Positions 1,650 through 21,392 of a DNA stretch of 64,000 nt are shown piece after piece. Origin of the DNA: Megalonaias nervosa (lineage: Eukaryota; Mollusca; Bivalvia; Unionida; Unionidae); assembly GCA_016617855.1 (NCBI GenBank), contig JAECUM010003186.1:1-64000 (forward strand). The letters run 5' to 3'. The stretch's first letter is position 1; each line of letters starts with the position of its first letter. Both the position numbers and the translations under genes were made by a program. Below the pieces are notes generated by a model. The model was not told where the DNA came from, did no database searches, and worked only from the letters and a program-made list of their open reading frames with translations.

Positions 1650-1685
1650 TCTTTTCGAGGCAATGAAGTGGCCCCGAAAAGGGCC
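1650..1685 (-). terminator. Histone-mRNA-type 3' stem-loop (SL1) with purine box
   Basis: On the minus strand the hairpin GGCCCTTTTCGGGGCC (1670-1685) has a 6-bp stem (last pair T-G) and a TTTC loop. It is preceded by AAA and followed by ACTTCA. The box GAAAAGA (1650-1656) begins exactly 13 nt after the stem. This matches the known metazoan histone 3' processing signal. It lies 24 bp past the stop of the gene at 1710-2060. Confidence 0.85.
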
Positions 1686-1709
1686 TTTGGATTTCTTCAT
1701 CTTTGTCTT

Positions 1710-2060
1710 CTAAGTTCTTCTTTTCTTCCACCAACTTCTTATTTTCTGTCCTACACTCTTCTTTTTCTTCTGTTTTTTTTCCTCCTGTTTTTCCTTTTCC
1801 TCCTCCTCTTCCTGTTTATTCCTTTTGTCATTCTCCTCCTCTTTCTCAATTTGTTTTTCATTCCATTCCCTCATCCTCTGTTTGTCTTCTATATCTTCCT
1901 TTTCTTCCTTTTCAATTCTAATCATCTCATTTAAGATCTCTTTCCCTTTCTTCAAATTGTTGATTTGAGGACTATAAGCCCCAAACTGCATTCTAACTAG
2001 CATTTCCTTCACCATATCTTGTGTATCTACTACCCCCTGCAATCTCAGCATTCTCTCCAT
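1710..2060 (-). CDS. Small charged coiled-coil protein, SL-terminated gene 1
   Basis: Encodes about 116 residues. I chose the ATG at 2058-2060 because a TATA box lies 55 bp upstream (2115-2121); the open frame continues to 2150 but that part precedes the TATA. The first half contains a short amphipathic segment; the second half is a long Glu/Lys/Gln-rich region that should form a coiled coil, ending in a basic, Trp-containing tail (SWWKKRRT). It is the outermost gene on the left, read outward, and ends just before the stem-loop in the TIR. I do not recognise a family. It shares its promoter layout with the next two genes, suggesting co-regulated small regulatory or accessory proteins. This frame looks intact. 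Confidence 0.75.
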   Translation of the reverse strand: MERMLRLQGVVDTQDMVKEMLVRMQFGAYSPQINNLKKGKEILNEMIRIEKEEKEDIEDKQRMREWNEKQIEKEEENDKRNKQEEEEEKEKQEEKKQKKKKSVGQKIRSWWKKRRT

Positions 2061-2114
2061 GTTACTAGCGATTTTGTATTCTGTGTAGAATGGCGCGAAT
2101 GACGAACGTTTCAG

Positions 2115-2152
2115 TTTATATGTCTCAAGCACGGACGTGAAGGAAAACATCC
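2115..2152 (-). promoter_or_regulatory. TATA box plus shared 20-bp upstream box (copy 1)
   Basis: Minus-strand ATATAAA at 2115-2121, then an 11-bp gap, then the box GGACGTGAAGGAAAACATCC (plus-strand reading) at 2133-2152. The same box with the same spacing occurs at 3281-3300 and, with three changes, at 3990-4009. Confidence 0.8.
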
Positions 2153-2160
2153 CTTACACT

Positions 2161-2531
2161 CACTTCACATATTATATACTATCCACACAGACTGGGAGAG
2201 AAGAAAACACACCATATCTACTATACACACAAACGTACGCGAACGCATAAAACACACACTCTATTATCCACACAGAAGGGAAAAAAAGATAAAAACATAC
2301 CATATCTACTATCCACACTGACGGGAAGAGAAGAAAAACACACACTCTATTATCCATACAGAAGGGAAGAGAAGAAAAACACACCATATCTACTATCCAC
2401 ACAAACGTACACGAACGCATAAAGCACACCTTATATACTATCCACACAGAAGAGAAGAAAAGAGAAAACCACACCACATCTTCTATCAAAAACCAAATAT
2501 CTACTATCCACACAAACGTACGCGAACGCAT

Positions 2532-2590
<59 letters not shown>
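2161..2590. repeat. Diverged tandem repeats ending in (CA)n
   Basis: Repeated segments built around ATATCTACTATCCACAC, CGTACGCGAACGCATAAA and CAGAAGGGAAGAGAAGAA recur several times, followed by a (CA)n tract at about 2538-2587. Open frames here, such as the Cys/Val-alternating ones, are by-products of the CA tract. The block fills the space between gene 1's promoter and gene 2's terminator. Confidence 0.85.
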
Positions 2591-2593
<3 letters not shown>

Positions 2594-2661
2594 TCAGTAA
2601 AGGAGTGAGTGTTTATAGTCACACTACTCCACATTCACACAAATTGGCAACTTGAACAGTG

Positions 2662-2697
2662 TCTTTTCTAAAGATTTGGTTAGCCCTGAGAAGGGCT
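2662..2697 (-). terminator. Histone-mRNA-type 3' stem-loop (SL2) with purine box
   Basis: Minus-strand hairpin AGCCCTTCTCAGGGCT (2682-2697): a perfect 6-bp stem with a TCTC loop, preceded by AAAAC and followed by AACCAA. GAAAAGA (2662-2668) starts exactly 13 nt after the stem. It is the 3' signal of the gene at 2808-3209. Confidence 0.85.
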
Positions 2698-2807
2698 GTT
2701 TTCTCTTCGAACTCCAATTGCACCTGGCTAATCGTGGCACCTCCCTGGTCGGGCACCACACACGCACCGTCTGCTCCAGTCCTGCTCCCAATTTAAGGTT
2801 GTGGCTG

Positions 2808-3209
2808 TTAGCACAGAGGGGGCTTGACTAGCTTCACTCTCCCAATCTTCACTTTCAGGTATTGTGAAGACTTCCTCTGTCTTCTTCTATTTTGTAGCCG
2901 GGGATGATAATTAGGTCTCTGCTGCTCTACTGGCACTGGTACTTGTGGCTGTGGCTGACGTTGTGGAGTTGTTGCTAAGGGTTGTGGAGGCGTCCTCACC
3001 TCAGGCTTGACCTCATACAGAGGTCTCAGTATGAGGTGAGGTAGGATCCCTCTCTTCTTTTCCACTTCTTCTGTCTTCTTTTTCCCCTCTTCCTCCTCTT
3101 CAAGCCTGGTGGCCTCTGCTATGGTCTCCATGGCATGCTCATCTAAAATGCGCCTGGCATACTCCAGGTGCATCTGAAGCTCCAACAATTTGGCAATTCT
3201 GTTACTCAT
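2808..3209 (-). CDS. Small Leu/Glu- then Pro/Arg-rich protein, SL-terminated gene 2
   Basis: Encodes 133 residues from the ATG at 3207-3209, 53 bp below a TATA box (3263-3269). Residues 1-35 form a likely amphipathic helix, residues about 36-55 are an acidic then basic charged stretch, the middle is Pro/Gln-rich, and the end is Arg/Lys-rich. No catalytic motif is visible and I do not recognise the family. The frame is intact. Its promoter and 5' leader resemble those of gene 3, indicating a duplicated gene pair. It is followed about 110 bp later by the stem-loop SL2. Confidence 0.75.
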   Translation of the reverse strand: MSNRIAKLLELQMHLEYARRILDEHAMETIAEATRLEEEEEGKKKTEEVEKKRGILPHLILRPLYEVKPEVRTPPQPLATTPQRQPQPQVPVPVEQQRPNYHPRLQNRRRQRKSSQYLKVKIGRVKLVKPPLC

Positions 3210-3262
3210 TTTGTTACTGTTGACGAATCAACGATGGGTAGCCAGACTGATTATCGCACCGT

Positions 3263-3300
3263 TTTATATCCCTGGAGCGCGGACGTGAAGGAAAACATCC
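3263..3300 (-). promoter_or_regulatory. TATA box plus shared 20-bp upstream box (copy 2)
   Basis: Minus-strand ATATAAA (3263-3269), an 11-bp gap, then GGACGTGAAGGAAAACATCC (plus reading) at 3281-3300, identical to copy 1. The gene's ATG lies 53 bp downstream of the TATA. Confidence 0.8.
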
Positions 3301-3517
3301 ATTGACATAAAAATTTACCATACCACTATTACCATTACATGGAACGCGCAGACCTAAAAGAAACACTCACGTTGACTTTTTTACTTACAAATACTGACAT
3401 GCAATATCGGACAAGACAGAGAAACGAAGCGCTTATAGACACACTTCTATTTATTAAACATAACCACACAAATGTTTTGGAAACTGAATTAGTATGGCTT
3501 TTAGAGAGTGTTGGGGT

Positions 3518-3533
3518 AGCCCTGAAAAGGGCT
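3518..3533 (-). terminator. Histone-mRNA-type 3' stem-loop (SL3)
   Basis: Minus-strand AGCCCTTTTCAGGGCT: a perfect 6-bp stem with a TTTC loop, preceded by AAAAAC and followed by ACCCCA, very close to the histone consensus tail ACCCA. The downstream purine box is weaker here (TAAAAG about 14-15 nt after the stem). It ends the gene at 3564-3920. Confidence 0.8.
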
Positions 3534-3563
3534 GTTTTTGTTGAAGGGGGAGATGGCAATCTT

Positions 3564-3920
3564 TTATCGTCTAAGATTGCGTCCCCGTCTGGCAGCAGAC
3601 TTTCCTACAGGTTTCGGTCTGCTTCTTCGGAAAGAGAAGGAGAACTCCTTGGTGTCTACTCGGCAGTCGACAAAACGTCTGTCTGGTTCCTGCTGCTGTT
3701 GTTGTTGCTGTTGTTCTCTCTGCCGCTTCTGAAGTCCATACTTTTCTGTCCAATCTTCTTGTTCTTTCTTGATTTACTCTCTGAAGAATTCTTCTATCAG
3801 GTCTTCGGTCACCTTCAACATCCTGACATTCTCTATCCCATCAGGCTTCGGTATCAGGTTTTGCCTGACACGGTGTAAATTCACGTAAGCTTCGTTCAGC
3901 AGGGTTAATCTTGAAGGTAT
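3564..3920 (-). pseudogene. Broken small helical/Gln-rich protein, SL-terminated gene 3
   Basis: The region downstream of the TATA at 3972-3978 aligns with the leader of gene 2, but the position of that gene's ATG reads ATA here (3918-3920), so the start appears lost. The frame runs through a helical N-terminal half, meets an in-frame TAA at 3774-3776, then continues into a Gln-rich (CAG/CAA run) and basic C-terminus ending at TAA 3564-3566, 30 bp before SL3. I read this as a paralogue of gene 2 with a lost start and one nonsense mutation. An alternative is that the upstream open frame (to 4172) is used, but that would start upstream of the TATA box. Confidence 0.65.
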
Positions 3921-3971
3921 CTTCGTAGGTTGACGAGTCAAAAATGGATGGCCAGACTGGAGTCTGCCTCG

Positions 3972-4009
3972 TTTATATGTGGCAAACGTGGACGCGATAG
4001 AAAACATCC
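3972..4009 (-). promoter_or_regulatory. TATA box plus diverged upstream box (copy 3)
   Basis: Minus-strand ATATAAA (3972-3978), an 11-bp gap, then GGACGCGATAGAAAACATCC (plus reading) at 3990-4009, three changes from copies 1 and 2. The preserved spacing argues for a functional site that has since drifted. Confidence 0.7.
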
Positions 4010-4141
4010 CTACTGGGTTTTTGTTCGGTCGGAAGGCTATGATAGCTAATGTCATGGTGAGGGATAGAGAGAAGCCAAAGAGCATATATTCACAATGTTT
4101 TTGAAAACAAACGGCAAACACATTTGTTTTTAAAACACATT

Positions 4142-4147
4142 TTTTAT
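4142..4147 (-). terminator. Poly(A) signal AATAAA after the protease gene
   Basis: Plus-strand TTTATT, i.e. AATAAA on the minus strand, 22 bp beyond the protease stop codon. It shows that this structural-type gene uses an ordinary polyadenylation signal, unlike the stem-loop genes next to it. Confidence 0.5.
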
Positions 4148-4168
4148 TCAACAAACAACTACCAACTA

Positions 4169-4773
4169 TCAATTAACAATAACATCAAAAAAACTTTTTT
4201 GACAAGGTTGACAACGTTGTGAAATCATGTTAGATTTCCATTGATGGAAGTCATGAGGCCATTGATGTACACTACGTTTCCCAGCTAAAGACAAAAGATA
4301 GCCATAATGGTCACAAAACCATTGATCTACTTTCTCATCGTTTCTAGATGCGTTACGATCAAAATAAGTCGCTAAATGTTCCAAATAATATCCAAGACCG
4401 CGTTGATGAAGAAAATACACACAATATTGTCCACACACCATGGAATCTGAGCCTTGTAATTTCACATTATTGAATCGTGTCGTCTGGGCATTTCTTCTCA
4501 TAAAGTCAACGATGTCGCCTTCCAAAGGGAGCATCCATACAAATCAAAATGCTCCACACAACCCTCTTTAGGGAAGTAGACGGCTACCGAGTGGGTTCCT
4601 GGGAGATGACTCTCGTCGGTGTTGATGACATAAGATTGATGGTCTTGAGGTTTGCGGTGAGGCAGTTCATCTTTAGCACACACGACAGGATTCCAAGAAG
4701 CAGTGTACGAACTGTTGTTCAAAAGGTAATAAAGTTCCCAAGTATCCATTTTTTGTTTTGGTTTTATTTCCAC
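4169..4773 (-). pseudogene. Adenain-like cysteine protease (PRO), frameshifted
   Basis: About 200 residues in two overlapping frames (4773 to about 4510, then to 4169), close to the usual adenain length. The catalytic His is in PGTHSVAVYF, the acidic residue in EHFDLYGC, and the catalytic Cys in MVCGQYCVYF. The Trp that normally follows the His in this family is Ser here. The C-terminus has a Cys-rich tail (RCQPCQKSFF). In Polintons and adenoviruses this enzyme matures capsid proteins. One indel near 4510-4530 separates the active-site halves, so the copy is broken. It follows the small gene 4776-5156 on the same strand with a 2-bp gap. Confidence 0.9.
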
Positions 4774-4775
4774 AG

Positions 4776-5156
4776 TTAATGATAAGTCATCAATTCAATT
4801 CTTACTTTTTGTTTGAAAATCTTTGACAAGTAACTGTTTCTTTGCTTCGTCTCCGCACTCTGGGCTAAGATAGCTTCGATGCGATAGATCTCTAGAGTAG
4901 TCAGTGGAGGGCAGGAATGATCACCCAAGCCTTTATACGACTCATGCAACACTGCTTCTTCCAAGATGAGACTCCAAGCATCGTCTCGATACTCGTCCAA
5001 TTTTCCTTCTTGGCTCATCATCAGACATTTATCGTGTTGAATTTAACTGGGATGATCGTTTTGACATCCATAGCAATCTTTCGTGGTCATTTCCGTAATT
5101 TTATCTGCCAGGTGTTTGGCAAAACAGGACACTAAATGTTGTTCTTGTTCTGCCAT
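4776..5156 (-). pseudogene. Small conserved Polinton protein with CxxC/DHPS/HxxxC motif
   Basis: About 126 residues from the ATG at 5154-5156. The N-terminal third contains CYGCQNDHPS, then an in-frame TAA (5043-5045) where related Polinton proteins have Gln, then IQHDKC. This arrangement looks like a small zinc-binding motif. The C-terminal part is helical and acidic. Genes of this type commonly sit between the capsid and protease genes in animal Polintons; the exact role is unknown to me. One C-to-T change would explain the stop. Confidence 0.7.
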
Positions 5157-5233
5157 CTGGGCGTGACCACTATGTCCTCTTCGTCTTTGTCTTGGGGTTC
5201 ACGGTTTCCTCCCATTCCATTTCCAAAGACTCT

Positions 5234-6587
5234 CTAGTGTTCAAGGAGGGTAAGAGTCTTCCATAGTTTATAATATTCTAGAATGACTTCTCTCAAACTG
5301 TTGATTTCTATGGTATTATCGAATTCAGCATACCAGACCACGTTCACCGTCTCGGCGAGGGCATCTGCAAACTGAAGTTCCACACGCAGTTGACCGGATT
5401 TTATAGGGTGGAAATGTCCCTCGTCGCTCCCTTGGTCTGGGGTGAAATCAAAAGGTCCACAAAGTGTAATCTCCTACATAAACGTCGTATGAAATGCCGT
5501 GACTGGTGTTGGTCCCTAGCTGTCCGGTAGCTTCGTACAGGGACAAGTAAGATCTCAAGTAATTCTTCTGGGCAAAGTTAGGTTCGAAGGGTCTGGTACA
5601 CAATGTCTTACCATCGCGACTGACTTCGATCTTGGACACTATAGTGCTCAAACTGGAAAGGATTTTGATCGTGGGCTCCGTTGAGGGTTGCATTGCTGAC
5701 GATACCAACAATTAAACGTTTGGGTAACTGTCCTTGGAACAGATGATCTTCGATCTTGGATCGGAGTCCAGCACCAATGGTTAAAGTTTTCACTTCTACG
5801 CGTCATATCGGATACTTGGCGGTCGTTCTGCTCAATGTGTGACTGATGTCGTTTCCCGCTTTGGGTAACACTTCTACGCGGCGCTCGTAAAGTCTGGTTT
5901 CTTGGATGATGGTTTTGTACTCGTTGGCATGAGCCATCAAATAAAGAGCGACATTGCTGCGATTCAGTCTCAGGCGGATATCCACTCCTTTGAGCAAATA
6001 CTTGTCTTGCAACCACATGTTCAAATGCAAATGATCCATGAGTTCCAAACTACGACCTTGCAGGATTTTCTTTCGACGCTCGTTAAAACCCACATTGTGA
6101 GGATCGTCATCTGCTGTTAGGGTGTGTCGTTAAACTTGTCCTAACCTGCGGTGTCAGGTTTCCAAACCACGCAAGCATCCAGATGAGTGTTCTTGGCCTC
6201 TTTTCCGTACGTCAAGAGATTTTCCAGGTACGCTAGGTAAGGGTAAGTATCCATGCTGCTGCTGACCAGTTTGTTATTCAAGTACAAGTCCACATCGCTG
6301 AAGAAGAAATGCATGAAATTGTTGACGGGAGCTACTCTGGCATCGGCTCCCGGACTGGTGTTGTCCGTTTTGATCACTTTGAGTTTCAGGTACACGTAAC
6401 TGCTATTCAGATCGATGTAATCTTCCGGCTGTAGTTTGATTTCAAACTCGATGAGAGCTGAGTACGTCAAAGCGGAGACGGGATGAAATTCGACCCATTG
6501 GGATTCTTGATTCGTCATCATGGTGGGTGGTATGGCAAACAGATCCAGTTCCGACTTAGAACAGAGGCAAGACTCTTTGTGCATCAT
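5234..6587 (-). pseudogene. Major capsid protein (double jelly-roll), broken
   Basis: About 450 codons across several frames. The N-terminus has the Polinton capsid signature SELDLF..PPT, then YIDLNSSYVYLKLK and DVDLYLNNKLV, the expected start of the first jelly roll. The middle (6093-5803) has LNMWLQDKYLL and RLYERRVEVLP. The next part (5793-5450) has LPKRLIVGIVSNA and ends in the Pro-Phe-rich FEPNFAQKNY region. The last part (about 5450-5234) has EFDNTIEINSLREVI, the usual end. There is a stop near 6139 and frame changes near 6120, 5800, 5650 and 5450. The product would have formed the hexon-like capsomer. Confidence 0.9.
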
Positions 6588-6716
6588 TTTCTTTCTTTCT
6601 CTGATTTAATTATGAAAAACGTCTAAGTCTCGGACGGTACTTCTGTTCCACATCTTTGTAGTTCTGGGTGTGTGAAGTCGTCTGAAGGGGTGTCTTCGTC
6701 GTCTCTTTCTGCCTTG

Positions 6717-7046
6717 TCATTGCTGTGGCGTCAGGGAAGTAGGTATGCCTGACTCGTCAGCGTCCGGGACATTTATTGGAGTTTCTCGTCGGCCCAAAAT
6801 GTGTTTGCCTGTTTGAAGCAAGACATTTTTTCCTGCTCCCAAGAAAGCTTCCTTGGGATTTTGTTTGTCAATGATGACATTTTGGAGAAATTCTTTGCCT
6901 TGCGTCAACACGGCATCTCTCAAGATGTGCAATCCCCGTGTCACCATCGGTTTCACAAAGAGACCCACCGAACGAAATGCTGATTGCATCATATCTTCTA
7001 AACCATGTCCTCGCTGTCAAGCGACTCCTTGGTACAGAGGATACAT
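6717..7046 (-). pseudogene. Small amphipathic virion protein, pVI/pX-like position
   Basis: The ATG at 7044-7046 opens with YPLYQGV, an in-frame TGA (7017-7019), then QRGHG and an amphipathic Ala/Gly/Lys-rich helix region ending at 6717. Genes with an N-terminal YQRG(H/Y)G and a helical body sit between the two capsid genes in many Polintons and are considered minor virion proteins. A short basic reading frame continues to about 6604 in another frame and may be a displaced C-terminus. Function is inferred from position and composition only. Confidence 0.6.
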
Positions 7047-7059
7047 GCCTTACAAGGGG

Positions 7060-8382: not shown

Positions 8383-8387
8383 TTATT

Positions 8388-9530
8388 TTATAGTCGATGA
8401 TTTGCGAAGCGTCGCTCCAAGAGTCAAAACTGGGAGGATATCCTTTCCAACGTACTTTGACTTATTTGACACGTCGTTTTCCCTCTGTTCGGGTTCTTCG
8501 ATCGAGAATGCTTTCTATCTCGTACAGTTCGTCTTCTTTTTTGGTTACACGTTGTAACTCGGGCAAGTAAAACAATCCTCTTAACACTTCCCCATTCATG
8601 TCTTCCAATGTATAGACGGGAGGATGACGGCCACACACTCGTTCAGTGACACTAAACAATTCAGTGGTCCAGTTGGGTAAGGAACCTTTGTCGAAAGTGC
8701 GTTTGGTTCGGCCAATGCGCACCCAATCTCCTGCTGCCAACACTCCACCTTTCTTGGGGATAGTCACAGTCGGGACGTATCAAACAGACGCTCGAAGACG
8801 GCCACTTCGTTGTCGGGAGTCACTTCTTGGGTGCACGTCCTATGCTCCAATGGTAAAATTGGTTTTACTTTTGGACTAGGTGCAGTAAGACGTCGATGTA
8901 CTTGAGAGTGTTTTGATGAGTAAGATATTTCCGTATTAGTTCTTTCAAGGTGCGTTGAAAACGTTCCACGATGCTGGCTTTGGTTTCGAGATTCTCGGTG
9001 AAAAAATGAATGTCACGTTTCTTCAATTCCTTTTGGAAAGCTTAGATCAGAAATTCGGTGCCTTTGTCGGTTTGCCATAGAAGAGGGTGACGACCGCTTT
9101 ATTTCAACACCAGTTTGAGGGCTCGCACTAACTCACTGCTCGATTTGGAAGTCAACGGCACGACCCAGGCAAATTTAGAAAAGACGTCGATGACACAAAA
9201 CAAATATTTGTAGCCACGATTGCAGGTGGCGAAATGAGAGATATCGGCTAAATCGGCTTGCTATTGATGATTGATACCCTCCACTCGGGTGCGGCTTCTT
9301 TAAAATTTTCGTCGAATGGGTTTGTGTAAGGTGTACGTGGCTTGTTCTTGTAACCATTGTTGCACTTGAAGTAAACGGACACTGTTCAGTCCAGTTTTGG
9401 CAGCATGATACAATTTCTGAACTCCTCCGTAACCTGCAGGATGGGATGGATCGTAGTTAATGCTGGCTAACACCTTCACCGTTTTTAATAAGTTACCCAC
9501 TCTTCGCTGATGATACTCTACATGGGACGA
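8388..9530 (-). pseudogene. Retroviral-type integrase with C-terminal chromodomain, broken
   Basis: The N-terminal domain (9500-9300) reads INYDPSHPAGYGGVQKLY and ends YTLHKPIRRKF. The catalytic core keeps all three acids: D in VIDVFSKFAWV (near 9190), D in WQTDKGTEF (near 9065) and E in KASIVERF (near 8975). An SH3-like part (8767-8560) follows, then a chromodomain: YEIESIL, then VRWKGYPPSFDSW (about 8430). Stops or frameshifts occur near 9265, 9100, 9045, 8880-8770 and 8463. One TAG (near 9260) sits where the family has Trp. The enzyme would insert the element's DNA; the chromodomain would target chromatin. The start codon is unclear; the frame extends to about 9530. Confidence 0.9.
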
Positions 9531-9711
9531 GGGGGCTGTTTAGAAACGGCTTTACATGTCCGATGTGCCACAGGAGTAGAAGTGGAAAGAGTTTTGGTGG
9601 TGGTGGTGGTGGTGGTGGCGGTAATGGAATGACTTTGTTCTTCTTTTCTTTTTTCACTTTCTGTTTCTCTTCTTTCTTTATGGCTTCTGTCGAAGGAGTT
9701 GTGGACATCAT
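9493..9711 (-). CDS. Lys- and Pro-rich open frame upstream of integrase
   Basis: A 72-codon frame with a Lys/Glu-rich N-terminus and a run of nine prolines encoded by a (GGT)n-like tract (9598-9625). It overlaps the integrase start. It could be a displaced C-terminus of the Pro-rich gene at 9721-10662 or a small separate protein. I do not recognise it. Confidence 0.35.
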   Translation of the reverse strand: MMSTTPSTEAIKKEEKQKVKKEKKNKVIPLPPPPPPPPPKLFPLLLLWHIGHVKPFLNSPLVPCRVSSAKSG

Positions 9712-9720
9712 CTTTTTAAC

Positions 9721-10662
9721 CTAAGCTTTAAGTTCTTCTGGTTGAGGTGTAGGGGAAGGGGTCAACAAGGACGCTGTAATCTTACTAGGGATGGGAGCTG
9801 GTGACGGTGTTTGAAAGACTTCTCTTACCTCTTCTTCCTTATGCATTCGTGGGGCTGCATCTGTCTTGACCGCTGGGGGTGGTGGTGGCGGTGATGGACT
9901 TTTGATCAGGGTATTAAATCTTTCAGAGTTGGCAGAGCTGTTTCGTCTGAAGCTTTCTGGTGAAAGTGTTGCAGTCGTTGCAACAGTTGACCTTACTGTT
10001 GCGATTATTCCGTTTCGGACAAATGGCTGCGATCCATCAATGATTGCAGTTCGTGTTGTAACTGGGACACCTCGGTCAAATGAGGATTGGGAGGTAAATG
10101 CGGTGTCGGTTGTTCTTGCCAACGATGGTATTCCATCCATCGTTTGTTTGGTACTAAAGCCAGTTTTCGTCCTTCCATCTGGATTTCAATGATCAGGTCT
10201 GAGATCTTTTGATTCCAGAGGTCCCTTTTATCTTCTTGACCCTTTTGTCTTGGAGCTGTGGCGGGTAAAACACTTCCCAACATACCCAACATAGGTCTCG
10301 CTATTGCTTTGGTAATAAGTCCTAAAAGTGGTGAAAATTCTCCGCGTTGCACCAACATGTTTTTGTTTTGACAAATGGGTATTTTCTTTTGGACCATTTG
10401 GCAAAAAACGTGTCAATGTTTGGCTAAAGATTCTTTCTGATGTTTAGACAAAGGTATCGTTCCTTTCAAGACAATCAGAGAACATTCGCTGAAGGTATCG
10501 ATGACGTCTTTGAAGGCTGTTTAAAGGAGTTTTTTCCGTATGGGTGGAGAAGCATTGGACAGGACGGACAACACGTCCCAATGTTTGACTAAACGAGGAG
10601 GCAGTCATTTCCTTTTCTTTCTTTTGTGGGGTAGAAGAAGGATCTCCTTTGGGAGGAGACAT
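9721..10662 (-). pseudogene. Conserved Polinton virion-type protein with Gly/Leu hydrophobic stretch, broken
   Basis: Likely starts at the ATG at 10660-10662 (SPPKGDPSS). After a frame change the body (10530-10260) reads LIVLKGTIPLSKHQKESL, then QRGEFSPLLGLITKAIARP. This is the layout of a small protein common in animal Polintons: Leu/Lys-rich helix, Gln/Lys motif, then a hydrophobic FLPLL-type stretch. The C-terminal part (10140-9721) is Pro/Ser-rich with two polyproline runs. At least two frameshifts separate the pieces. A membrane-active or capsid-interior role is possible but inferred. Confidence 0.55.
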
Positions 10663-10737
10663 CTTTGTTTGTTTGTTGTTTGGTTCCGAGACACACACCA
10701 AACATACACTAGCGTCGATGACTTGGCACACGGCCTT

Positions 10738-10977
10738 TTATCCTTTTTTGACTATTGCTTGGTCAAAAAGGTGACGATTTGTTTTCCAGAATCGCCAAAG
10801 AATCCTCCTCTTTGGTGGCTTCTCCTTTTTTTTTAGAAGTCTGCGTCTTTTCTGGGGGTGATGTCGATGCTTATGTAAATGTTTTTTCGGATGGCGAGAC
10901 TGTCCATTTCTTTTTCCTTTTCCTTTCTAGACAGGAGAACGACGATTGTAGTAGTGTACACTTCTTTGAGGGGACAT
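10738..10977 (-). pseudogene. Small highly basic protein, tandem copy B (MSPQ family)
   Basis: An 80-codon frame from the ATG at 10975-10977, beginning SPQRSVHYYNRRSP, then an in-frame TAG (10927-10929), then a Lys/Arg/His-rich body (SRHPKKHLHKHRHHPQKRR). Composition fits a DNA-condensing core protein like those of adenoviruses; this is inference. The gene is one unit of a 299-bp tandem duplication with copy A. A TATA-like GATAAAAGG (11022-11030) lies about 45 bp upstream, and its own stop overlaps the TATA-like box of the next gene. Confidence 0.6.
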
Positions 10978-11030
10978 CTTTGAGGCACAAAATACACTGA
11001 CATCCATGGCTCGACATGCGTCCTTTTATC

Positions 11031-11276
11031 TTATTTTCTTTGGAGCTTGTCATCTAAATGTTTTCCTAAATCATTTACTAACTTATCCATTAAAAAGAAA
11101 AATCCTCCACTTTGGTGGCTTCTCTTTTTCTTTGGACGAGTTTGACTTTTCAGGGACAGATGTCGTTGTTGGGCTAAGCGTTTTTTCGGATGACGTGACT
11201 GTCCTTTTCTTTATCCTTTTCCTTTTTGGATAGACGAACGACGATGGTGACGGTGTGCACGTTTTTGGGGGGACAT
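11031..11276 (-). pseudogene. Small highly basic protein, tandem copy A (MSPQ family)
   Basis: An 82-codon frame from the ATG at 11274-11276, beginning SPQKRAHRHHRRSS, an in-frame TAA (11211-11213), then a basic body with GQSRHPKKRL. Start and body align with copy B exactly 299 bp away. The start is in frame with the gene upstream (11277-11863), so it could be read as that protein's C-terminus or as a separate product. A core or nucleoprotein role is inferred from charge only. Confidence 0.55.
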
Positions 11277-11863
11277 CTTTGGGCGTTCAGGAGCACAAAA
11301 ACTCTGATCCCCATCCTTTACCTCAGCTCGACGGCTGGTGGTATCATTTTCATGGCAGGCATCACGCGTCGTGGAGGGGTTCGCAACGGACACAATCGAG
11401 ATAGTTCTTACATATGGGATAAATATAAAATCCAGTAAACTCTTTAACATGCCTGATCTCTCTTGGACTTTGATTGTGGGGATAGGTACTTCGTGATCAG
11501 CGGCCACTGCCGCTAAAGAGGAAGAGGATGGAAGAGAAGTTCTTGGAGACGCGGGTTTCCAATTTGTAATGAAATTAATGAAGACACGTGTCAAATCTGC
11601 TTTGGTAGGCATCACCAGCAACAAAGACGTGGAAGAAGCTGAGGCTACTGTAGACACAGTCACCGTTGCGGCAGGTCGTTGTTTGCGAATGTAAGGTTGC
11701 GTCCTGGCTGCAGTGCCTTTCTTGCGAGTAGAAGCTGTTTTCTGTGGGCTGTTCTTTTTCCTTTTCTGAGGCTTTGAATTGGTCTTGACACTACTGCTCT
11801 TGTTCTTTTTCTTCTGGGTACGTCGGGGAGTGGCTTTTTTCTTTTAGAGGACTTTGGGGGCAT
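11277..11863 (-). pseudogene. Basic protein with Lys/Arg/Ser-rich N-terminus, frameshifted
   Basis: The ATG at 11861-11863 opens with PPKSSKRKK. After a one-base frame change near 11845 a very basic Lys/Arg/Ser/Thr region continues, then an Ala/Ser/Thr-rich and partly hydrophobic region (SLLDFIFIPYV) down to 11277. The basic start resembles virion core proteins of adenovirus-like elements; the rest is unrecognised. It leads in frame into copy A of the MSPQ family. Confidence 0.5.
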
Positions 11864-11902
11864 TGGGATCCCATTATAAGAGGGAGCGAATGATGACAAC
11901 TC

Positions 11903-12202
11903 CTAGAGAACCGCTACCTCCAGGTAGAAAAATGATTTGCTTTTGGTTTGAGTGTCGATGCAAGGATCGACCAGTTGCGTCAAGGCTACTTTGTTTCTCT
12001 CAAAAGAGGGTTTGGTTTGATGTGGAATGTGAATGATGCCATGCAGTAACTGACATGCTGTCACCGTAAACCATCGTAAGACTTCTTTGAGACTGCCTTC
12101 TAAGACACGAGCACGCATTTGTGGATTTTTTTTTTTCTCACTACTGATGCCATACAAGGGACGAATCAATTTGACGGGAAAATGAGACTGAAGGGACGTC
12201 AT
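11903..12202 (-). CDS. Hypothetical 99-residue protein downstream of ATPase
   Basis: The ATG at 12200-12202 lies about 40 bp below a TATA box (12241-12251), which is why I prefer it to the longer open frame reaching 12316. The protein has an N-terminal basic/aliphatic half (QSHFPVKLIRPLYGI) and a helical middle (LKEVLRWFTVTACQLLHGI). No domain is recognised. The frame is intact. Confidence 0.55.
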   Translation of the reverse strand: MTSLQSHFPVKLIRPLYGISSEKKKNPQMRARVLEGSLKEVLRWFTVTACQLLHGIIHIPHQTKPSFERNKVALTQLVDPCIDTQTKSKSFFYLEVAVL

Positions 12203-12240
12203 GTTGAGGCTGTGTGAGACCGATCCACAGTGACCGAGGT

Positions 12241-12251
12241 TTTTATAGACT
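12241..12251 (-). promoter_or_regulatory. TATA box for the 99-residue gene
   Basis: Minus-strand GTCTATAAAAA, about 40 bp upstream of the ATG at 12202. The 40-55-bp TATA-to-ATG distance is the same as for other genes of this element, implying very short leaders. Confidence 0.6.
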
Positions 12252-12267
12252 TTTTTAGTTGTTGTTT

Positions 12268-13109
12268 TTAAGTCGACGACGGGATCGTAGACACGACAGG
12301 CCCTCCGTCTTGGCACCAGTGTTGAAACAGATGGGTACGAAATCGCAAATATTCAGGGGTAGTGGGTTTTAAATCCACGAGTAAATAGGCGTGTGGAGTT
12401 TGAGTGGCATCGTCGTACGCATTTGTCAGCCAAGGCGTTCCTAACAGTTTGGCTAACACTTGCACTTGCGATTTATCTCTAGGGCTTTTAAACAAGACCA
12501 CGCAATGAGCATTGAGACTAATGGTGCGATGGGCGTTAGTTTGTTGAAACATATTTTGGGTGATGTAAATGACACTGGCATTACGATGATGCCCTTTGCG
12601 CGTAAGCCAGAGTTTAATTTCTTCCTCGTCTTCTCCTAACATGTCGTCGAAGATGACCAGATGTGTTCGACTGGAGTCAGACACGATCCCGTCGTCTTCG
12701 CCAGGAATGCCTTCCACCAAGACGATGGAATTGCCTTGACTTTCTCGCAGAAGGCTGTACGCCGATTGCCACTCTTTGCAACACCACACAATCCGTTGAG
12801 GTGGACGATCGATCAAATGATGTCTATGTTTGATCAAACGTTTCACAAATTCGGTTTTGCCTGAACCGCTAGGTCCGGCAATGAGCATGTTAAAGGGATG
12901 GCGAAATACAAAGACTCCTAACTGGTACGATATAAGTGTTCGTCGATAACTTTGAAAGTGGAGGAAGAGGGAGCAGAGACAGTAGAGGTAGCTATCGTAG
13001 TGTGAGGAATGTCGCATTTGACACGAAGACAGAAAAGACAAGGGTTGTTATACTTTTTTTTCAGGACACTTTTATTGCCATCTTTAAAAGTGAACAACAC
13101 GAAAGACAA
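12268..13109 (-). pseudogene. DNA-packaging ATPase (FtsK/HerA, A32-like)
   Basis: The main frame (13041-12268) starts its core with GVFVFRHPFNMLIAG, Walker A GPSGSGKT (near 12865), IDRPPQRIVWCCKEW, and Walker B LVIFDDMLGEDEEE (near 12650). The sensor region IYITQNMFQQ and the arginine-type SPRDKSQ follow, all as expected for Polinton packaging ATPases. An N-terminal extension (13109 to about 12918) with CLFCLRVKCDIPH sits in another frame, so one indel near 12920 breaks the gene. The core domain itself is uninterrupted. The product would pump DNA into capsids. Confidence 0.9.
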
Positions 13110-13116
13110 AAATAAA

Positions 13117-13881: not shown

Positions 13882-14001
13882 GGTAGTCCGTTTTTATACC
13901 TCTTTTTGTCGGAGGCAGTAACTGTAATTTCTGCACAGAGATGATCGTACTCCAGTGACGAATCTAAATTGTTTAGTCACTAACATGCACATCACACAAC
14001 G

Positions 14002-14858: not shown

Positions 14859-14975
14859 TGGCAACGCAAGATACAGCACCGTAGTCGAGTTTCTCATTGG
14901 ACTTGAGTCGTACGCTTGATACTTGCTGTGTGAAAGGATTCACCTTTCTCGCTTGGTGTTGGTAGTTACAATGAA

Positions 14976-17900
14976 CTATCGGTCTTGGAAGTTGTCGCTT
15001 TTTATATGCTGACCAATATTGACGTGACAGGACGGTGAAGTGAAGTGATTTGGAAACCGCACTCGCTTCTGGTATACGATTTGATATACTATTTCCAAGG
15101 GTCGACTGACGATTTGGTGTGTGGGTAAACGTACAATCTTGTGAGGCTGGTAGGTGGTTACTTTAAAGTTTCCATCCTGTCCAGACTGCAAGGCTTCTTT
15201 CAATACACCAAAGTTCACCACTTGACAGGTGCGATAATTGAGAGTCAATCCTTTCACTTTACACTCAGTGTGCACTTCTTCTTGTGGCTCTCGGTATTCG
15301 TAGCCGTAATTTTTGGGACCGCCACTAGCAAAACTTAGAATCTTGTTGTTGGACGGACGAGTCCAGGCTCCTAAACGGTCTCCTTCGATGTCAGGGTGAC
15401 AGTGACCCAGGCGATCGATGTAAATGCAACTGTCCGTGTCAAAATACAGGACAGGATCTCCTAAATGGTGTAACGCTATGTAGAGTTTTAAGCGAGCATG
15501 GGCTGTCACGTAGGCCACAATGATAACATTTCCAAATTCGTCGGCTTGTACAAAGTTCAGTTCTTCTTCGTATTTAATTTAAGATCAAGTCCTCATGAAC
15601 GACGTCCACGTGTTTCATGTATTTGGTTTTGTCGTGAATCATCTGGAAGTAGCGGGAAGGTTCTGTCAAATACTCCGTCTTGGGTAAACACGGTCGTTGT
15701 GCCATTTTGTCCCACAAGCAATATAACATCACTTTGGCAAACGATCGCCTTTCTTCGTTTTTCTCGATGTGGTCTAAGGTGATCCCTTCCTGCTCCCAGT
15801 AATTGTCTTTGAATTTATTTTGGTCTTCGGGAGTGTGGTAGTAGGAAGGATAGCCGCTGGCTTCTTGTTTCAGTTTCAAAAAGGCATTCACGTAGTCTGC
15901 AAAAATGCTTGCCTTTCTGAGTCTCGTCGCCCTTGTGGTATTTTTTTGTCTTGGGAAAGTGGTAAATTTCGTACACTTCTAACAGTTGATATCCCAGGTC
16001 CAGAGCTTTGAACAGTTCTACGCTGACCCACGTTCCCGTTAAGGCACGTTCTTTCTGAGCGTGCTGACAAGTTCGGTCTTGGTTGCACGTTTCGGTACAA
16101 GTGCGGCACAAGGGAAACATCAGTTTTCCTTGGCAATGGAGAGGGAAAACGGGATGGCACAAGTACGTGGGAGGCAAGACTTTGCACTTGATCAATCCTT
16201 CGTATTCTCGAACTTGTCCAGGTCGATGTGTTCCGTCAGCAATTGCGGGTACCCTGCGGAAAGTGACAATATTTGCACACGTAAGGATACAGTGAACACA
16301 CGTCCAAGTATTTGATTTCTTGTAATTTCTCCTTGTCGCCTTGGTACAGCAAACGAGTGGCATTCGTCCGTCCTCCGTGCAATCTGTCCCGTGGGTTCAG
16401 AGGGTCCACAAGCTTCTAACTTTCCACAGTGCGTTTAAACTCGGGATCGGTTTTCAATCGATGATCGTGCTCGTGTTCCCACATTTCCATCACTTGGTAT
16501 CCATGCTGTTCTAACTTCAGGCGCCGCTTACAAGTGGCCTGGTACAAATCTTCCATGGTCCGTTGTAAAACTTGATTTTTAGTGCCACGTTGAAGGTAAC
16601 AGATCGGACATCCGTGAAATAAGCACCCGTTAAACTCGCACACGATCTTAGGGTTTTCTAAGTCCCAACCATACTACGAATACGTTCCGACAGTCTTTCC
16701 ACCTCTTCCGTTGCGGGCATGCTGGATTAATTTGTCTTCCTTGTCACACAAGTAATGTAGCCAGCGTAGGGCTTTGACCGAGTATTGACGTTTGACAAAA
16801 TTGGTCGTTTGATTGATTATGACAGCTAGAGTGTTTTCGGGCATGAATCGTTGACAGTACACTAAGGAACACGCTTTGGCAATGGTACAGGCTTCTTTCA
16901 AAGGATCGATCCCTCTGTGCTCCATGAACAGTTCTCGAAATTTTCCACAGCAACGCCGTATAATGTCCACGTCGGAACGACAATATTTTAACATTTCTTC
17001 CTGAAAGTCGAAAGGGTCCGAGGCGTGAGTGTGGTACCAAGCATAGATAGCTTCTCGTTGTTCAGTACGCATGTTGTCGGGGTCGTAGTAGTGAGCCTCA
17101 GGCAAATGGGGTAGAACGGCGTGTTGATTGACTTCGGTATTGAAAAGTGCGGAAAAATAGCCTTTGGCCATTTCTCTCATTCCAAACGTTTTAGGCATTC
17201 GACTCAATGGCATGGCTAAGTAACTCATCGAATCGTTAACCTGCACTTGTCTTACTTGCATGGAAATGATTTTGGCTCCGTTCAAAGTCACTTTAGGACG
17301 TTCGGTGCCTTGTTCAATATAGTATCTGAAAAGAAATTGCCCATCGTAACCCGAGAAATTGTAAACCATCACCGTAGCATTGCGATGAGAATCTCCGTAA
17401 TGTTCGATGTCCTCTTGTCTCCACGTCTCGTCGATAGGGTTTAAGATCCATTGGGCGAAATCAGCTAGCGTGTTCGGTCCCCGAAAGATTTTTTCACGTC
17501 CTCCAGGAATCTTGCTGCAGTGAGGGCAAGAACTAAAGAAAGGCTCTTGGATGCACTTCTCGCACGCTCGATGAGCCACGCAGAAATTATGAATGTTAAT
17601 ACCGGTCTCTTGCATGCATTCGAACTCGAAAGAAATGAAATTGCCTTTCTTCTGGTCATCTTCTTCCTCTTCATGTTTGGAATGTTATTTTTGAATGTAG
17701 CATTCGTGTTCCAAGTCTACGATTTGGCTACAAATACGTGAGCATTGACAATATTTGTTCGTATGCCATGTCCACAAGTAAGGCACTCTCAGGAGTTGAG
17801 AAGCACTTTTCCGCTGTGAACCTTGCGTCTTCAAATGTTGTTGGTAACAGGTTGGAGAGACAAAAGTTCGCTCACATGCAGAGCAATGTACTCGTTCTTG

Positions 17901-18980
17901 TTCTTCGTCAAGACAAGGTTTAGGGCCAAACATCCCTCACATTTCGATCTACAATGCTTGTGTTGCTCTCGATTGTTATAGCCATAGTCACATTTCTCAC
18001 AATAATAACCGTATCCCAGGAATGCAGTAATACTGGTAATGGTATCGAAATGTTCATCATGATGATAGACGTGAATGTATTTTCCGTCTTTGAAATTTTT
18101 GCCTCGAAATAACAGAGGTCCATGCACTTCTTGAGGGTGCAGTTTCAAGGTGTAGCGTGCAGCTAAGACGTCTTGTAAGTTTTGCATTTAAGGAATGCCA
18201 CAGGGTGTGTCTTTTGCTAGCCCCGTTTGCTGTAACATGAGTTCTGCTTCTCTTTGTTATTTGGTTCGGCTAGATTTTTGAATCTTTTCCCACTCTCTTT
18301 ACCAGTCTGCCGACTTGTTCTTGTCGGCATATGTTCGTCCTACCACGATAGCACGGGGTAAACACATCTTGTCTTGAGGATTGTTAATTCGGACGAGGCT
18401 CGTTTTGGTGCTGCGAAGGTCGTCTAACATTAACACCCTTTTGCGTCCGGTCCCTTGGGGAAGAGACACGTGGATCATGAACAGTGTCGCTTTTCCATCG
18501 GTGATGTGAAACTTGTCGTTGGATTGTTGCACGTGTTGAATCTTGTCGATGACTTTGGAAGGTGTCAATTCTTATGGCCTGCTAAACTCGATCCAAATGG
18601 GGGACTTCAAGCTGTCGTGATGAATGGAAAGTCTCACGCGATCGTCTTCTTTGGCTTCACATTGCTGTTTCAGTGTGGTTAACAAAGAATCCCACACATC
18701 GGTGATGAACCCTTCTACTTTATCCAACGGTACGTCGGACTTGAAATCTTTAAACTTTTTTCACCGTGTACGTGTAGGCTGTGGTTCTAAATTTTCTAGA
18801 GGAGCGTTTGTCCGTCTCTCGAATGTGAAAGTACTTTTCAGGGTTTACTGGTGGTGGCAGTGGACTTTGTTTGGGTGTAGACTCTTTTGGTCTGGATTCT
18901 GGTTCACTCATGTCATCTTCAAAATCGCTGGCATGAATTTGATCCAAGACTTCAGCTACTGTGCAAGGCGATAAGTCACG
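14976..18980 (-). pseudogene. Protein-primed family B DNA polymerase (pPolB), broken
   Basis: About 1,300 codons. The N-terminal region (18570-17830) has CLPRAIVVG and HFDTITSITAFLG, then a Cys/His cluster starting YYCEKCDYGY. The exonuclease part has YNFSGYDGQF (near 17355) and YCRSDVDIIRR (near 16980). Then come CEFNGCLFHGCPICY (near 16620) and polymerase motif A DVCSLYPYV (near 16300). LMFPLCRTC and ERALTGTWVS follow, then motif C YFDTDSCIY (near 15435). This order is that of Polinton polymerases. Stops include TAA at three sites between 18300 and 18187; frame changes occur near 18745, 16660, 16400, 16250, 15900 and 15580. The far N-terminus and start are not resolved. The enzyme would replicate the element. 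Confidence 0.92.
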
Positions 18981-19105
18981 ATTCTGCCTCTTACTTTCTT
19001 CTCCTTTCTGTACGAAATGATGCGATCGTTTGATCTTGACTGCAAAAAGTCAAATGACTACATTTGAAACGCCATGGACACCTTTATGTCCATGTCAGAC
19101 CAGTG

Positions 19106-19115
19106 TATATATAAA
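19106..19115 (+). promoter_or_regulatory. TATA box of plus-strand zinc-knuckle gene
   Basis: TATATATAAA, 54 bp upstream of the ATG at 19169. It lies in the gap between the divergent polymerase gene and the zinc-knuckle gene, so the two may share a control region (18980-19168). Confidence 0.7.
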
Positions 19116-19168
19116 GGGCTAGTGCCTTCTCTCCCAGTATTCATTTCACTCTCAAGCCTACCAGAACG

Positions 19169-19536
19169 ATGGAACAACCCACACAGATCGAACTTCTGAT
19201 CAGAGCTATGCGAGGTGTCATACTAAAGTTTTCGTCAGACAAGCCGACGGACTACTCCCCCTCCTTTTGAGATAAAAGTCAAGATACTTGCTATATCTGT
19301 CAGAAGAAAGGGCATTGGGCTACAGAATGTCCAGACGGTCAAAAAGCAAGACAGGTGCCAAAAGAGACAAAAGTCAAGATACCTGTTATCATTGTCAAGA
19401 GAAAGGACATCAGTCTTCAGACTGCCCTAAGAAACAAAAGGAGCAGGAGGAAGAAGAAGAGGCACCCTCAGCAAAGGAAGAACCCCGACACGTTCAGAAA
19501 GAGAAGAAAAGAAGACGAGAAAAAAGTGAGGAATAA
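19169..19536 (+). pseudogene. Double CCHC zinc-knuckle protein, broken
   Basis: The ATG at 19169 reads EQPTQIELLIRAMRG and stops at a TGA near 19268. The same frame continues with a CCHC knuckle, CYICQKKGHWATEC (about 19290-19331). A second knuckle, CYHCQEKGHQSSDC (about 19384-19425), lies in a shifted frame followed by a Glu- then Lys/Arg-rich tail. The two knuckles arise from a roughly 96-bp internal duplication (AAAGTCAAGATAC repeats). CX2CX4HX4C knuckles bind single-stranded nucleic acid; a nucleoprotein role is inferred. The gene lacks a stem-loop 3' end. Confidence 0.6.
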
Positions 19537-19832
19537 GAGGAGAAAAACCTGTGAAAGTGAAGAAATTCAAAAAAAATATAAAAAAAAAAAAAAAAAACCA
19601 GAGAGTGAACGAAAAAAGACACAGAAGAAATCTACGAACTTTTTAAAGTGTTGTCTTGTGTTGTGAATTGGATTGTAAAATTTGTACCGGAATAGACCAG
19701 AGAGAAAAACGTAAGTGTCTCCTAGTTTTGATTTTTAGAATGATAAGGACCTACACTCACGCACTCAGACACGTAGATCATACGGTAAAAAAATGGATTT
19801 TAGTTTTTATTGATTTTGGCAAAATGAATATC

Positions 19833-19868
19833 TCTTTTCGAAAGAAGTGAGTGGTCCTGAAAAGGACC
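19833..19868 (-). terminator. Histone-mRNA-type 3' stem-loop (SL4) with purine box
   Basis: Minus-strand GGTCCTTTTCAGGACC (19853-19868): a perfect 6-bp stem with a TTTC loop, followed by ACTCAC. GAAAAGA (19833-19839) starts exactly 13 nt after the stem. The stem sequence differs from SL1/SL2/SL3/SL5 but its pairing is complete, i.e. compensatory changes preserve structure. Confidence 0.85.
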
Positions 19869-19881
19869 GTTGGGTGATTGT

Positions 19882-20536
19882 TTTTATAAAAAAAAAAGCA
19901 AACTCCGGAACGAGAAGCAATCAGCTTTATCTGCCTTAAGCCTTTGCCACGGCCAAGACCAACTTCTGGACCTGCTTCCGTCGATGATTTAGTAGAAATC
20001 ACTAGGGCTGGTCTTTCAGGCGTGGTAAAAAGGTTGGGTTGTTTGGCTCGAGAAGGTCTTTTTCTCATGGGTCGTAATAAAGAAGTCTGATACATTTGTT
20101 TCAAACTCCTTAACTCGGCGAAAATGTCCAAGAGTACCGCTACCGTTTGACTTTCACTGTTCTCCTTCTCTCCAAGACCTTGTTTTTTGTTTGCTTCTTC
20201 TTCCTGTCGTTTTCTTCTTGCCTCTTCTTCCTCTTGCTGTTGCTTTTGAAGCCGACAAGCTTGTTCTGCTTGTTTCTGCTGTTGTAAAAATTTCTCCAAT
20301 TCTTCTTTCTGTCTCTGTTTAAAATCCTCGAGGTGTGGAAAAGAAGGAGAAGGTAGCGAAGGTACTGGTACCGGAACAAATTGTTGTGAAGAAGAGAGAA
20401 AATCCACTAAATCATAATTAAAATCGACCTATTCTGGAAGTAGACCTGTGTTAACTTTGGTAGCCACTGCTATGCCATCGCTTCTCGTCTCCACAGCCGG
20501 TGCAGCCCAATTCATCGTCTTCTTAGTTTTCGTCAT
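19882..20536 (-). pseudogene. Gln/Glu-rich coiled-coil protein, SL-terminated gene 4
   Basis: I place the start at the ATG at 20534-20536 (TKTKKTMNWAAPAVETRSD), 52 bp below a TATA-like CTTATATAGG. An in-frame TAG at 20429-20431 interrupts it; the open frame then runs to 19882 and beyond. Residues after the break are Gln/Pro-rich, then a long coiled coil (EELEKFLQQQKQAEQ, EEARRKRQEEE), then a basic tail (LLRPMRKRPSRAKQ). A poly-T tract (minus strand) near 19885-19897 probably hides a slip, because the annotated frame otherwise reads through SL4. Function unknown. Confidence 0.65.
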
Positions 20537-20587
20537 GTTTCAAAAACAATGTCGCATCGATTCACTGCGCACAGACGCTAGCGCACC

Positions 20588-20715
20588 TATATAAGGAATG
20601 AGACGTCACGGGTAGCTCTCTTCGGATTGGAAGACAGACCTTCGCGCAGTTGTAACGCGTATTGGGATTGGTGAAAAATTTCAATCCGTTTCGATCCGCT
20701 CTTCCACTATAAATA
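20588..20715. promoter_or_regulatory. Divergent promoter region between terminal genes
   Basis: Minus-strand TATA-like CTTATATAGG (about 20587-20596) and plus-strand TATAAATA (20708-20715) face away from each other, each 50-55 bp from its gene's ATG. The region between contains GACGTCAC and two ATTGG/ATTGG-type sequences (near 20627 and 20663) that could be CCAAT-class sites. The two outermost right-end genes, both stem-loop-terminated, are therefore fired from one divergent control region. Confidence 0.6.
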
Positions 20716-20757
20716 AACGCGATTCACTTCATTTCCTTCACCTGTTCTCGTCACAAG

Positions 20758-20986
20758 ATGTGGACAAACGTTGAATCTTCTCCTATCGTCGATGATGTTC
20801 CGTACGGACTTGCCTATGTATGTTAAGTCATCATGGACCATCATCCGGATCACCTAGACGACCGTTTGGAAAAGAAGGATCTATGTGGAAAGACAAGGCT
20901 GTCTGAAGCGGGTCCTCATCTACGGACCAGAGGTTAGACGAAGTTTAAGAAAGAAAGGAAGACCTTTGCGATGCCCTCTGTGTTAA
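20758..20986 (+). pseudogene. Small basic protein, SL-terminated gene 5, broken
   Basis: The ATG at 20758-20760 opens with WTNVESSPIVDDVPYG. The frame then shifts near 20820 and meets a stop near 20853. The C-terminal part, to TAA at 20984-20986, is rich in Arg/Lys (YGPEVRRSLRKKGRPLRC). About 75 residues if whole. No family recognised. It is the outermost gene on the right and its stop is 28 bp before the stem-loop SL5 in the TIR, mirroring gene 1 on the left. Confidence 0.6.
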
Positions 20987-21011
20987 CGGAATGGTGTTAA
21001 CATAAAAAACT

Positions 21012-21392
21012 AAAGGCCCTTTTCAGGGCCACTTCATTGCCTCGAAAAGATTTACTCTTTCATCCCTAATTGTTTTTTAGTCTATTGTATAATTTAGGTA
21101 TGATAGATTGATGTTCATCAATCTATGGTTGTGTTGTATATGTCTATGTCTCTAATCATGTTTCTTTGTCTCTGTCTCTATTGTATTTGTCCCTACCTAG
21201 GTAGCCGCGCGTATTCAGGTCAGTCACTTGCAACATTGTTGCCAGTACCGTGACGTCATCCCACCTGTTCCATTCCTATCTAGTGCCCCAGATGGTCCTA
21301 CAATGTTAAACTCCCATATACTGCCCCAGGGTACAACCCCCCGTTTTTCCTTATATGTTCTCATTTGCCCCAGGGTATCCCCATTCATTACT
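21012..21392. repeat. Polinton 1 right terminal inverted repeat
   Basis: Reverse complement of 1317-1688. It differs by a 47-bp extra block at 21211-21257 that contributes to a palindromic TGACGTCA at 21251-21258. It lacks the 38-bp duplication of the left arm. The outer end reads CCATTCATTACT, matching the left terminus. Confidence 0.95.
21015..21050 (+). terminator. Histone-mRNA-type 3' stem-loop (SL5) with purine box
   Basis: Plus-strand GGCCCTTTTCAGGGCC (21015-21030): a perfect 6-bp stem with a TTTC loop, preceded by TAAA and followed by ACTTCA. GAAAAGA (21044-21050) begins exactly 13 nt after the stem. It lies at the inner edge of the right TIR. Confidence 0.85.

Follow-up and report, generated by a model that had tools for sequence, protein, structure and literature searches.

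Histone-type 3′-end signals at the gene ends of a Polinton in the bivalve Megalonaias nervosa

The window analysed here (64,000 nucleotides (nt), positions 1 to 64,000 of the forward strand of contig JAECUM010003186.1, assembly GCA_016617855.1) comes from the bivalve Megalonaias nervosa and contains, at 1317–21392, a virus-like mobile element that we call a Polinton. Five hairpins near the ends of its small genes resemble the 3′ ends of metazoan replication-dependent histone messenger RNAs (mRNAs) in having a 6-bp stem, a 4-nt loop, a purine box 12–14 nt further on and, for SL1, SL3 and SL5, a short distance from stop codon to stem. They differ from those 3′ ends in belonging to genes of mobile DNA rather than to histone genes, and two of them (SL2, SL3) start with an A-U rather than a G-C pair. 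As the element has the same kind of hairpin and box as two host histone genes, its messages are likely cut in the manner of histone messages; we put at about 0.84 the probability that its transcripts are cleaved at the hairpins by the host SLBP/U7 machinery, so that they finish with the stem-loop and receive no poly(A) tail.

Five histone-type hairpins and their boxes

The original prediction, made from the letters of the window, had placed five hairpins in the element. All five were read directly at those positions and on those strands, SL1 to SL4 on the minus strand and SL5 on the plus strand, with the following parts:

1670–1685, minus: SL1 stem-loop, GGCCCT-TTTC-GGGGCC, with one U-G pair; RF00032, 35.1 bits
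1650–1656, minus: SL1 GAAAAGA box, similar to the histone downstream element (HDE), 13 nt past the stem
2682–2697, minus: SL2 stem-loop, AGCCCT-TCTC-AGGGCT; RF00032, 25.1 bits, under gathering; kept in copies
2662–2668, minus: SL2 GAAAAGA box, 13 nt past the stem
2646–2650, minus: SL2 third motif, TTGCC, 18 nt from the box start
3518–3533, minus: SL3 stem-loop, AGCCCT-TTTC-AGGGCT; RF00032, 25.1 bits, under gathering
3497–3503, minus: SL3 box site, altered here (CTAAAAG); most relatives have GAAAAGA, 14 nt past the stem
19853–19868, minus: SL4 stem-loop, GGTCCT-TTTC-AGGACC, with U-A at pair 3; RF00032, 37.7 bits
19833–19839, minus: SL4 GAAAAGA box, 13 nt past the stem
19818–19822, minus: SL4 third motif, TTGCC, 17 nt from the box start
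21015–21030, plus: SL5 stem-loop, GGCCCT-TTTC-AGGGCC, the same letters as the host H2A/H2B hairpin; RF00032, 36.6 bits
21044–21050, plus: SL5 GAAAAGA box, 13 nt past the stem

Their assignment to the histone stem-loop class was checked on the window with the Rfam Histone3 covariance model (RF00032, gathering cut-off 34 bits) and held for SL1, SL4 and SL5, which scored 35.1–37.7 bits; at the gathering cut-off nothing else in the 64 kb matched. The claim that GAAAAGA lies 13 nt past the stem in four of the five hairpins was likewise borne out, the exception being SL3 (CTAAAAG), and all five hairpins have G-C at the second stem pair. Folding of the free strand recovered the claimed hairpin in SL2, SL3, SL4 and SL5. 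Dinucleotide-shuffled versions of the element contained no hairpin-plus-box in 200 shuffles and 0.74 loose hairpins per element, and a loose scan of the window gave a single hairpin beyond the element (33721, plus strand), which lacks a box.

The 16-nt hairpin of SL5 is identical in its letters to the hairpins 3′ of a host H2A gene (L069) and a host H2B gene (L066); the box is GAAAAGA in H2A, 12 nt past the stem, and TAAAAGA in H2B, 13 nt past it. Among the 18 host histone loci fetched (11 PF00125 matches and seven H4 matches), these two were the only ones with a host histone-gene hairpin of histone type. Because the H2B frame of L066 passes through its own hairpin, this locus could represent a variant gene or one in decay. 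Two other candidates from the histone-locus scan were rejected, the hairpin at L090 belonging to Polinton sequence and the stem at L089 being unrelated to the histone-type hairpin. At L090 (G000:C16888) a weak H4-like match (51%, E 9e-5) lies about 0.9 kb from the Polinton hairpin and is probably unrelated to it. The host also encodes the SLBP RNA-binding domain (PF15247), with two matches over the cut-off on one contig (C954).

A third motif, TTGCC, follows the box in 50 of the 57 modules from 50 loci chosen by protein similarity, in 40 cases exactly +20 nt from the box start. It is present in 68 of 83 modules of a wider set, which takes in the two host histone genes and loci chosen by their hairpin, against 0.03 expected per interval searched. 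Host H2A has TTGCC at +20 and host H2B has TTGCA at the same place; SL1, SL3 and SL5 of the element studied here lack it. The complete module reads stem-loop, 12–14 nt, GAAAAGA, about 13 nt, TTGCC, and the presence of TTGCC in both the element modules and H2A argues that the Polinton and histone modules are the same thing, one perhaps derived from the other. We know of no description of TTGCC about 20 nt past the start of the histone box.

Copies of the module in the host genome

Related Polintons within the 2.19 Gb of genome searched keep hairpins at equivalent gene ends; the absence that the original prediction had named as refuting it did not occur in this genome. In the 30 best of at least 150 relatives of the SL2 gene (the window included), a strict scan found 40 sense hairpins, distributed over 25 loci, and 35 of the 40 have a box with at most one mismatch at 13–14 nt; none of the three antisense hairpins has one. 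Of 20 more diverged copies, 17 keep a hairpin with no more than one mispair together with a box with no more than one mismatch. Where relatives possess the SL3 hairpin, most show GAAAAGA, or a sequence differing from it in one letter, 14 nt further on; by this comparison the altered SL3 box of the window is a local change. The spacer measured 12–14 nt in all 69 perfect hairpins lying 3–29 nt upstream of GAAAAGA (13 nt in 58; a control word gave 2), a set in which many loci are copies or were picked by their hairpin.

The exact hairpin alone has 12,076 matches genome-wide, and the exact hairpin followed after 12–14 nt by GAAAAGA has 8,964, while the reversed control gave 0 in each case. The first 100 of these 8,964 places include 48 neighbour pairs less than 25 kb apart. 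Fifteen of the pairs point outward at a distance of 13–21 kb, a range with no inward pairs, and 27 lie on the same strand within 3 kb, where there are no opposite-strand pairs; the remaining six comprise four same-strand pairs 13–21 kb apart and, at 11–12 kb, one same-strand and one inward pair. At these 100 places the pattern is mainly the outward layout of the window. One place (G000:C207:36235-54421) has four minus-strand modules and then one on the plus strand, either one left-side module above the three of the window or adjoining copies.

Histone3 matches across the genome numbered at least 75, and the 36 examined all look like Polinton copies; visual inspection revealed no histone frame ahead of the hairpin in any of the 36. 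Thirty-five of them match the element by blastn, at L117 and L127 over a length (60 and 73 nt) barely longer than the module. The remaining one, L126, does not match the element by blastn; its assignment is based on a homolog of the right-end gene (43–49% protein identity). This locus (G000:C19536) looks like a strongly diverged lineage and has the hairpin and the box at 13 nt, without TTGCC. L077 and L078 have the same matches and look like a single locus on two contigs.

Around the SL2 site, the flanks are 76–77% identical among copies, against 86–91% in stem, loop, spacer and box; this per-column test used 48 of the 50 loci (two without an anchor were dropped) in an alignment that took the module itself as its anchor, and should be given little weight. 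The stems vary from site to site, pair 1 being A-U (SL2, SL3) or G-C, and pair 3 being C-G, U-G (many SL4 relatives) or U-A (SL4 of the window). SL4 had been singled out as a differing stem with all pairs kept, and read as a sign of selection on structure. The pairing is indeed retained, and further pairing variants were found, but since the variant rows were selected by requiring pairing, covariation is illustrated here and not measured.

Gene ends and competing explanations

Five genes or reading frames lie ahead of the hairpins:

1710–2150, minus: SL1 small gene, an open reading frame (ORF) of 146 amino acids (aa); stop 24 nt ahead of the stem
2808–3209, minus: SL2 small gene, 133 aa in this copy; stop 110 nt ahead of the stem
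3774–4172, minus: SL3 ORF, with a disturbed coding frame; open frames stop 30 and 37 nt ahead of the stem
19778–20407, minus: SL4 gene; ORF passes through the hairpin in this copy
20758–20986, plus: SL5 small basic-protein gene; frame broken here, 77 aa in fetched relatives; stop 28 nt ahead of the stem

Each hairpin had been described as lying shortly downstream of a small gene. This applies to SL1, SL3 and SL5 (24–37 nt), but in this copy it does not apply to SL2, at 110 nt, or to SL4, where the frame reads through. The reading frames upstream of SL2 to SL5 are disturbed in the window copy. For SL2, an alternative frame stops 30 nt ahead of the stem, and on visual comparison it ends much like two proteins from other species (P0102/P0103); for SL4, the frame stops ahead of the hairpin in several fetched relatives, not in L083. 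A TATA-like ATATAAA inside the 5′ part of the 146-aa ORF suggests that the SL1 gene starts later than the 5′ end of that ORF. The SL1 and SL2 genes have in common an upstream block, ATGTTTTCCTTCACGTCCG[CT]GCT, followed by the TATA-like ATATAAA (2110–2160 and 3255–3305, minus strand), which suggests a common promoter. Between SL2 and the SL1 gene (2172–2590, minus strand) there is a GT-rich microsatellite with degenerate repeats (TGTGTGGATAGTAGATATGG...), similar in several copies.

Polyadenylation signals are not enriched past the modules. AATAAA occurs within 120 nt downstream in three of 68 modules (those of the 83 with at least 124 nt of downstream sequence), the background being 0.11 per interval searched, and AATAAA and ATTAAA together account for five of the 68 over the same 120 nt.

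The histone-type reading held in most of the sequence tests, namely covariance model (three of five over the cut-off), identity of SL5, spacing, orientation, TTGCC, diverged copies and AATAAA. From the cis signals, which are what we observed, we infer that SLBP would bind the stem-loop of element transcripts, that U7 small nuclear RNA (snRNA) would base-pair with the GAAAAGA box, and that cleavage a few nt past the stem would leave a histone-type mRNA with no poly(A) tail; S-phase-biased expression would then match the expression of the element to host DNA synthesis. The signal was probably gained from a host histone gene and later reused at several gene ends.

Several results weigh against processing of this kind. 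SL2 and SL3 score 25.1 bits each (E 0.004), under the Rfam gathering cut-off. SL1 and SL5 form part of the terminal inverted repeats, at their inner edges, and so are not independent, being copies of one signal, and in free-strand folding SL1 of this copy prefers another pairing. An intact hairpin is missing in five of the 30 protein-chosen loci. At the SL2 site the 30 nt past the box are also 86% identical, and conservation among the copies of one family can partly be put down to mere descent. In the window copy AATAAA lies about 60 nt past SL3 and about 40 nt past SL4, so polyadenylation there is possible. Lastly, the U7 snRNA model RF00066 gave no genome match over the cut-off, with five sub-threshold, and no convincing 3′ hairpin was found among the 20 + 20 places inspected with folds from the matches to two Sm-site patterns (435 and 28).

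Some of these results would also fit a different history, in which an ancestor captured one histone 3′ end that then spread as inherited sequence, with no present role and with polyadenylation taking place elsewhere. The copies are numerous and related, some show ordinary stem decay, and AATAAA is present past SL3 and SL4 in the window copy. We nevertheless consider this unlikely, as gene ends whose coding flanks differ have these parts in common, with spacings that hardly change, boxed hairpins in the scanned loci are found in the sense orientation only and shortly past stops, stem variants preserve pairing, and poly(A) signals are not enriched (3/68). A role as transcription terminators, or as DNA structures used at the element ends in replication or packaging, rather than as U7/SLBP signals, seems very unlikely; while the terminal inverted repeats do contain SL1 and SL5, and the end hairpins face outward, SL2, SL3 and SL4 are internal, and a match of both hairpin and box to host histone genes is not needed for a function in DNA. 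Chance or a model artefact can be dismissed, for 6-bp stems do arise readily (0.74 loose hairpins per shuffled element, and, in one viral contig, an exact hairpin within a 784-aa ORF, probably by chance), but hairpin-plus-box was absent from the 200 shuffles and from the viral-contig collection, and the genome count of 8,964 against 0 for the reversed control refutes it.

The element, its relatives and implications

A repeat search of the 64-kb window delimited the element at 1317–21392, with inverted repeats flanking both ends; the arm at 1490–1694 pairs with 21006–21210 at 95% identity. The terminal inverted repeats are about 20 kb apart, inside the 15–25 kb range of Polinton/Maverick elements. 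Other features are:

1317–1694, no strand: left terminal inverted repeat, arms 1490–1694 (95%) and 1317–1443 (90%); SL1 within the inner edge
21006–21392, no strand: right terminal inverted repeat; SL5 within the inner edge
16674–17615, minus: part of a family B DNA polymerase (PF03175, E 3.3e-13; 99 homologs)
12268–13041, minus: A32-type packaging ATPase (PF04665, E 1.5e-7)
9099–9260, minus: piece of a retrovirus-like integrase core (PF00665, E 6.2e-6, under the curated cut-off); gene broken
19327–19536, plus: zinc-knuckle (CCHC) ORF (PF00098, E 2.9e-7)

Polinton is a fair name for the element because of its inverted repeats, polymerase piece, A32-type ATPase, integrase piece and zinc-knuckle ORF. 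It resembles known Polinton/Maverick (adintovirus-like) elements in the spacing of its terminal inverted repeats and in its polymerase, ATPase and candidate integrase piece, and differs from them in having histone-type gene ends. The hairpin scan of the element found no histone-type hairpin 3′ of the zinc-knuckle ORF, and there was no histone match among the 20 element ORFs scanned. Three ORFs (6141–6587, 4169–4534 and 4498–4773), named by resemblance as candidates for capsid or adenovirus-type protease genes, had no match in Pfam, and 4498–4773 had none in the PDB. Outside the element, an Rfam match to mir-297 at 21563–21633 (44.5 bits, cut-off 90) is likely a simple repeat. One polymerase homolog (P0011) comes from a record for a Solemya velum gill symbiont and may represent animal-host DNA inside a bacterial assembly.

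Cross-species matches, of proteins alone, were limited to P0100/P0101 (75/74%) and P0102/P0103 (54/50%). The C-terminus of P0101, QKPFSGPLTLLENIY, can be taken by eye for the translation of a hairpin with GAAAA 13 nt further on, which is suggestive only. The IMG/VR viral contigs contained no exact hairpin-plus-box, and scans for the ATPase, the capsid candidate and the polymerase alignment confirmed no relatives among viral contigs. One exact hairpin in a viral contig was set aside as chance, lying inside a GC-rich ORF of 784 aa with no box seen.

Hairpins and histones are both found on the virus side. In mimivirus, the ‘hairpin rule’ describes hairpins that mark the 3′ ends of giant-virus mRNAs, and those transcripts are polyadenylated and are not known to use the histone sequence or box; the likeness to the element lies in a hairpin at a viral mRNA 3′ end, and the difference in the tail and in the missing histone sequence and box. 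A polydnavirus carries an H4 histone gene. ‘Histoid’ genes of adomaviruses are mentioned in PMC11071296. Such viral histone genes resemble the present case as a borrowing of histone biology; they encode a histone-like protein, whereas the element has only the mRNA 3′-end signal in common with histone genes. No mention of histone-type gene ends was found in the part of that paper covered here. Nor did a literature search on histone stem-loops in Polintons, viruses, adintoviruses, polydnaviruses and transposons, and on U7 with viral mRNA, turn up a description, within a partial coverage that took in few subscription papers; to that extent the novelty claimed in the original prediction stands.

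We lean, with less confidence than in the cleavage of the transcripts themselves, towards a broader view of the element as a member of a large animal Polinton lineage with several pseudo-histone genes. These would carry a three-part module and give rise to non-polyadenylated, SLBP-bound and S-phase-timed mRNAs. On this view, most histone-type 3′ ends of the host genome would reside in the element, and TTGCC would belong to the histone processing signal as its third part.

To our knowledge, histone-type 3′ processing is generally held to be nearly private to replication-dependent histone genes. If the reading given here is true, a replicating parasite could couple its expression to the S phase of its host while bypassing poly(A) addition, and RNA data selected for poly(A) could miss the expression of such elements. 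On the broader view, the element, with some 9,000–12,000 such hairpins, would also compete for SLBP and U7 when expressed. Its copies offer thousands of natural candidate processing signals, TTGCC included, for dissecting the rules of U7 and SLBP.

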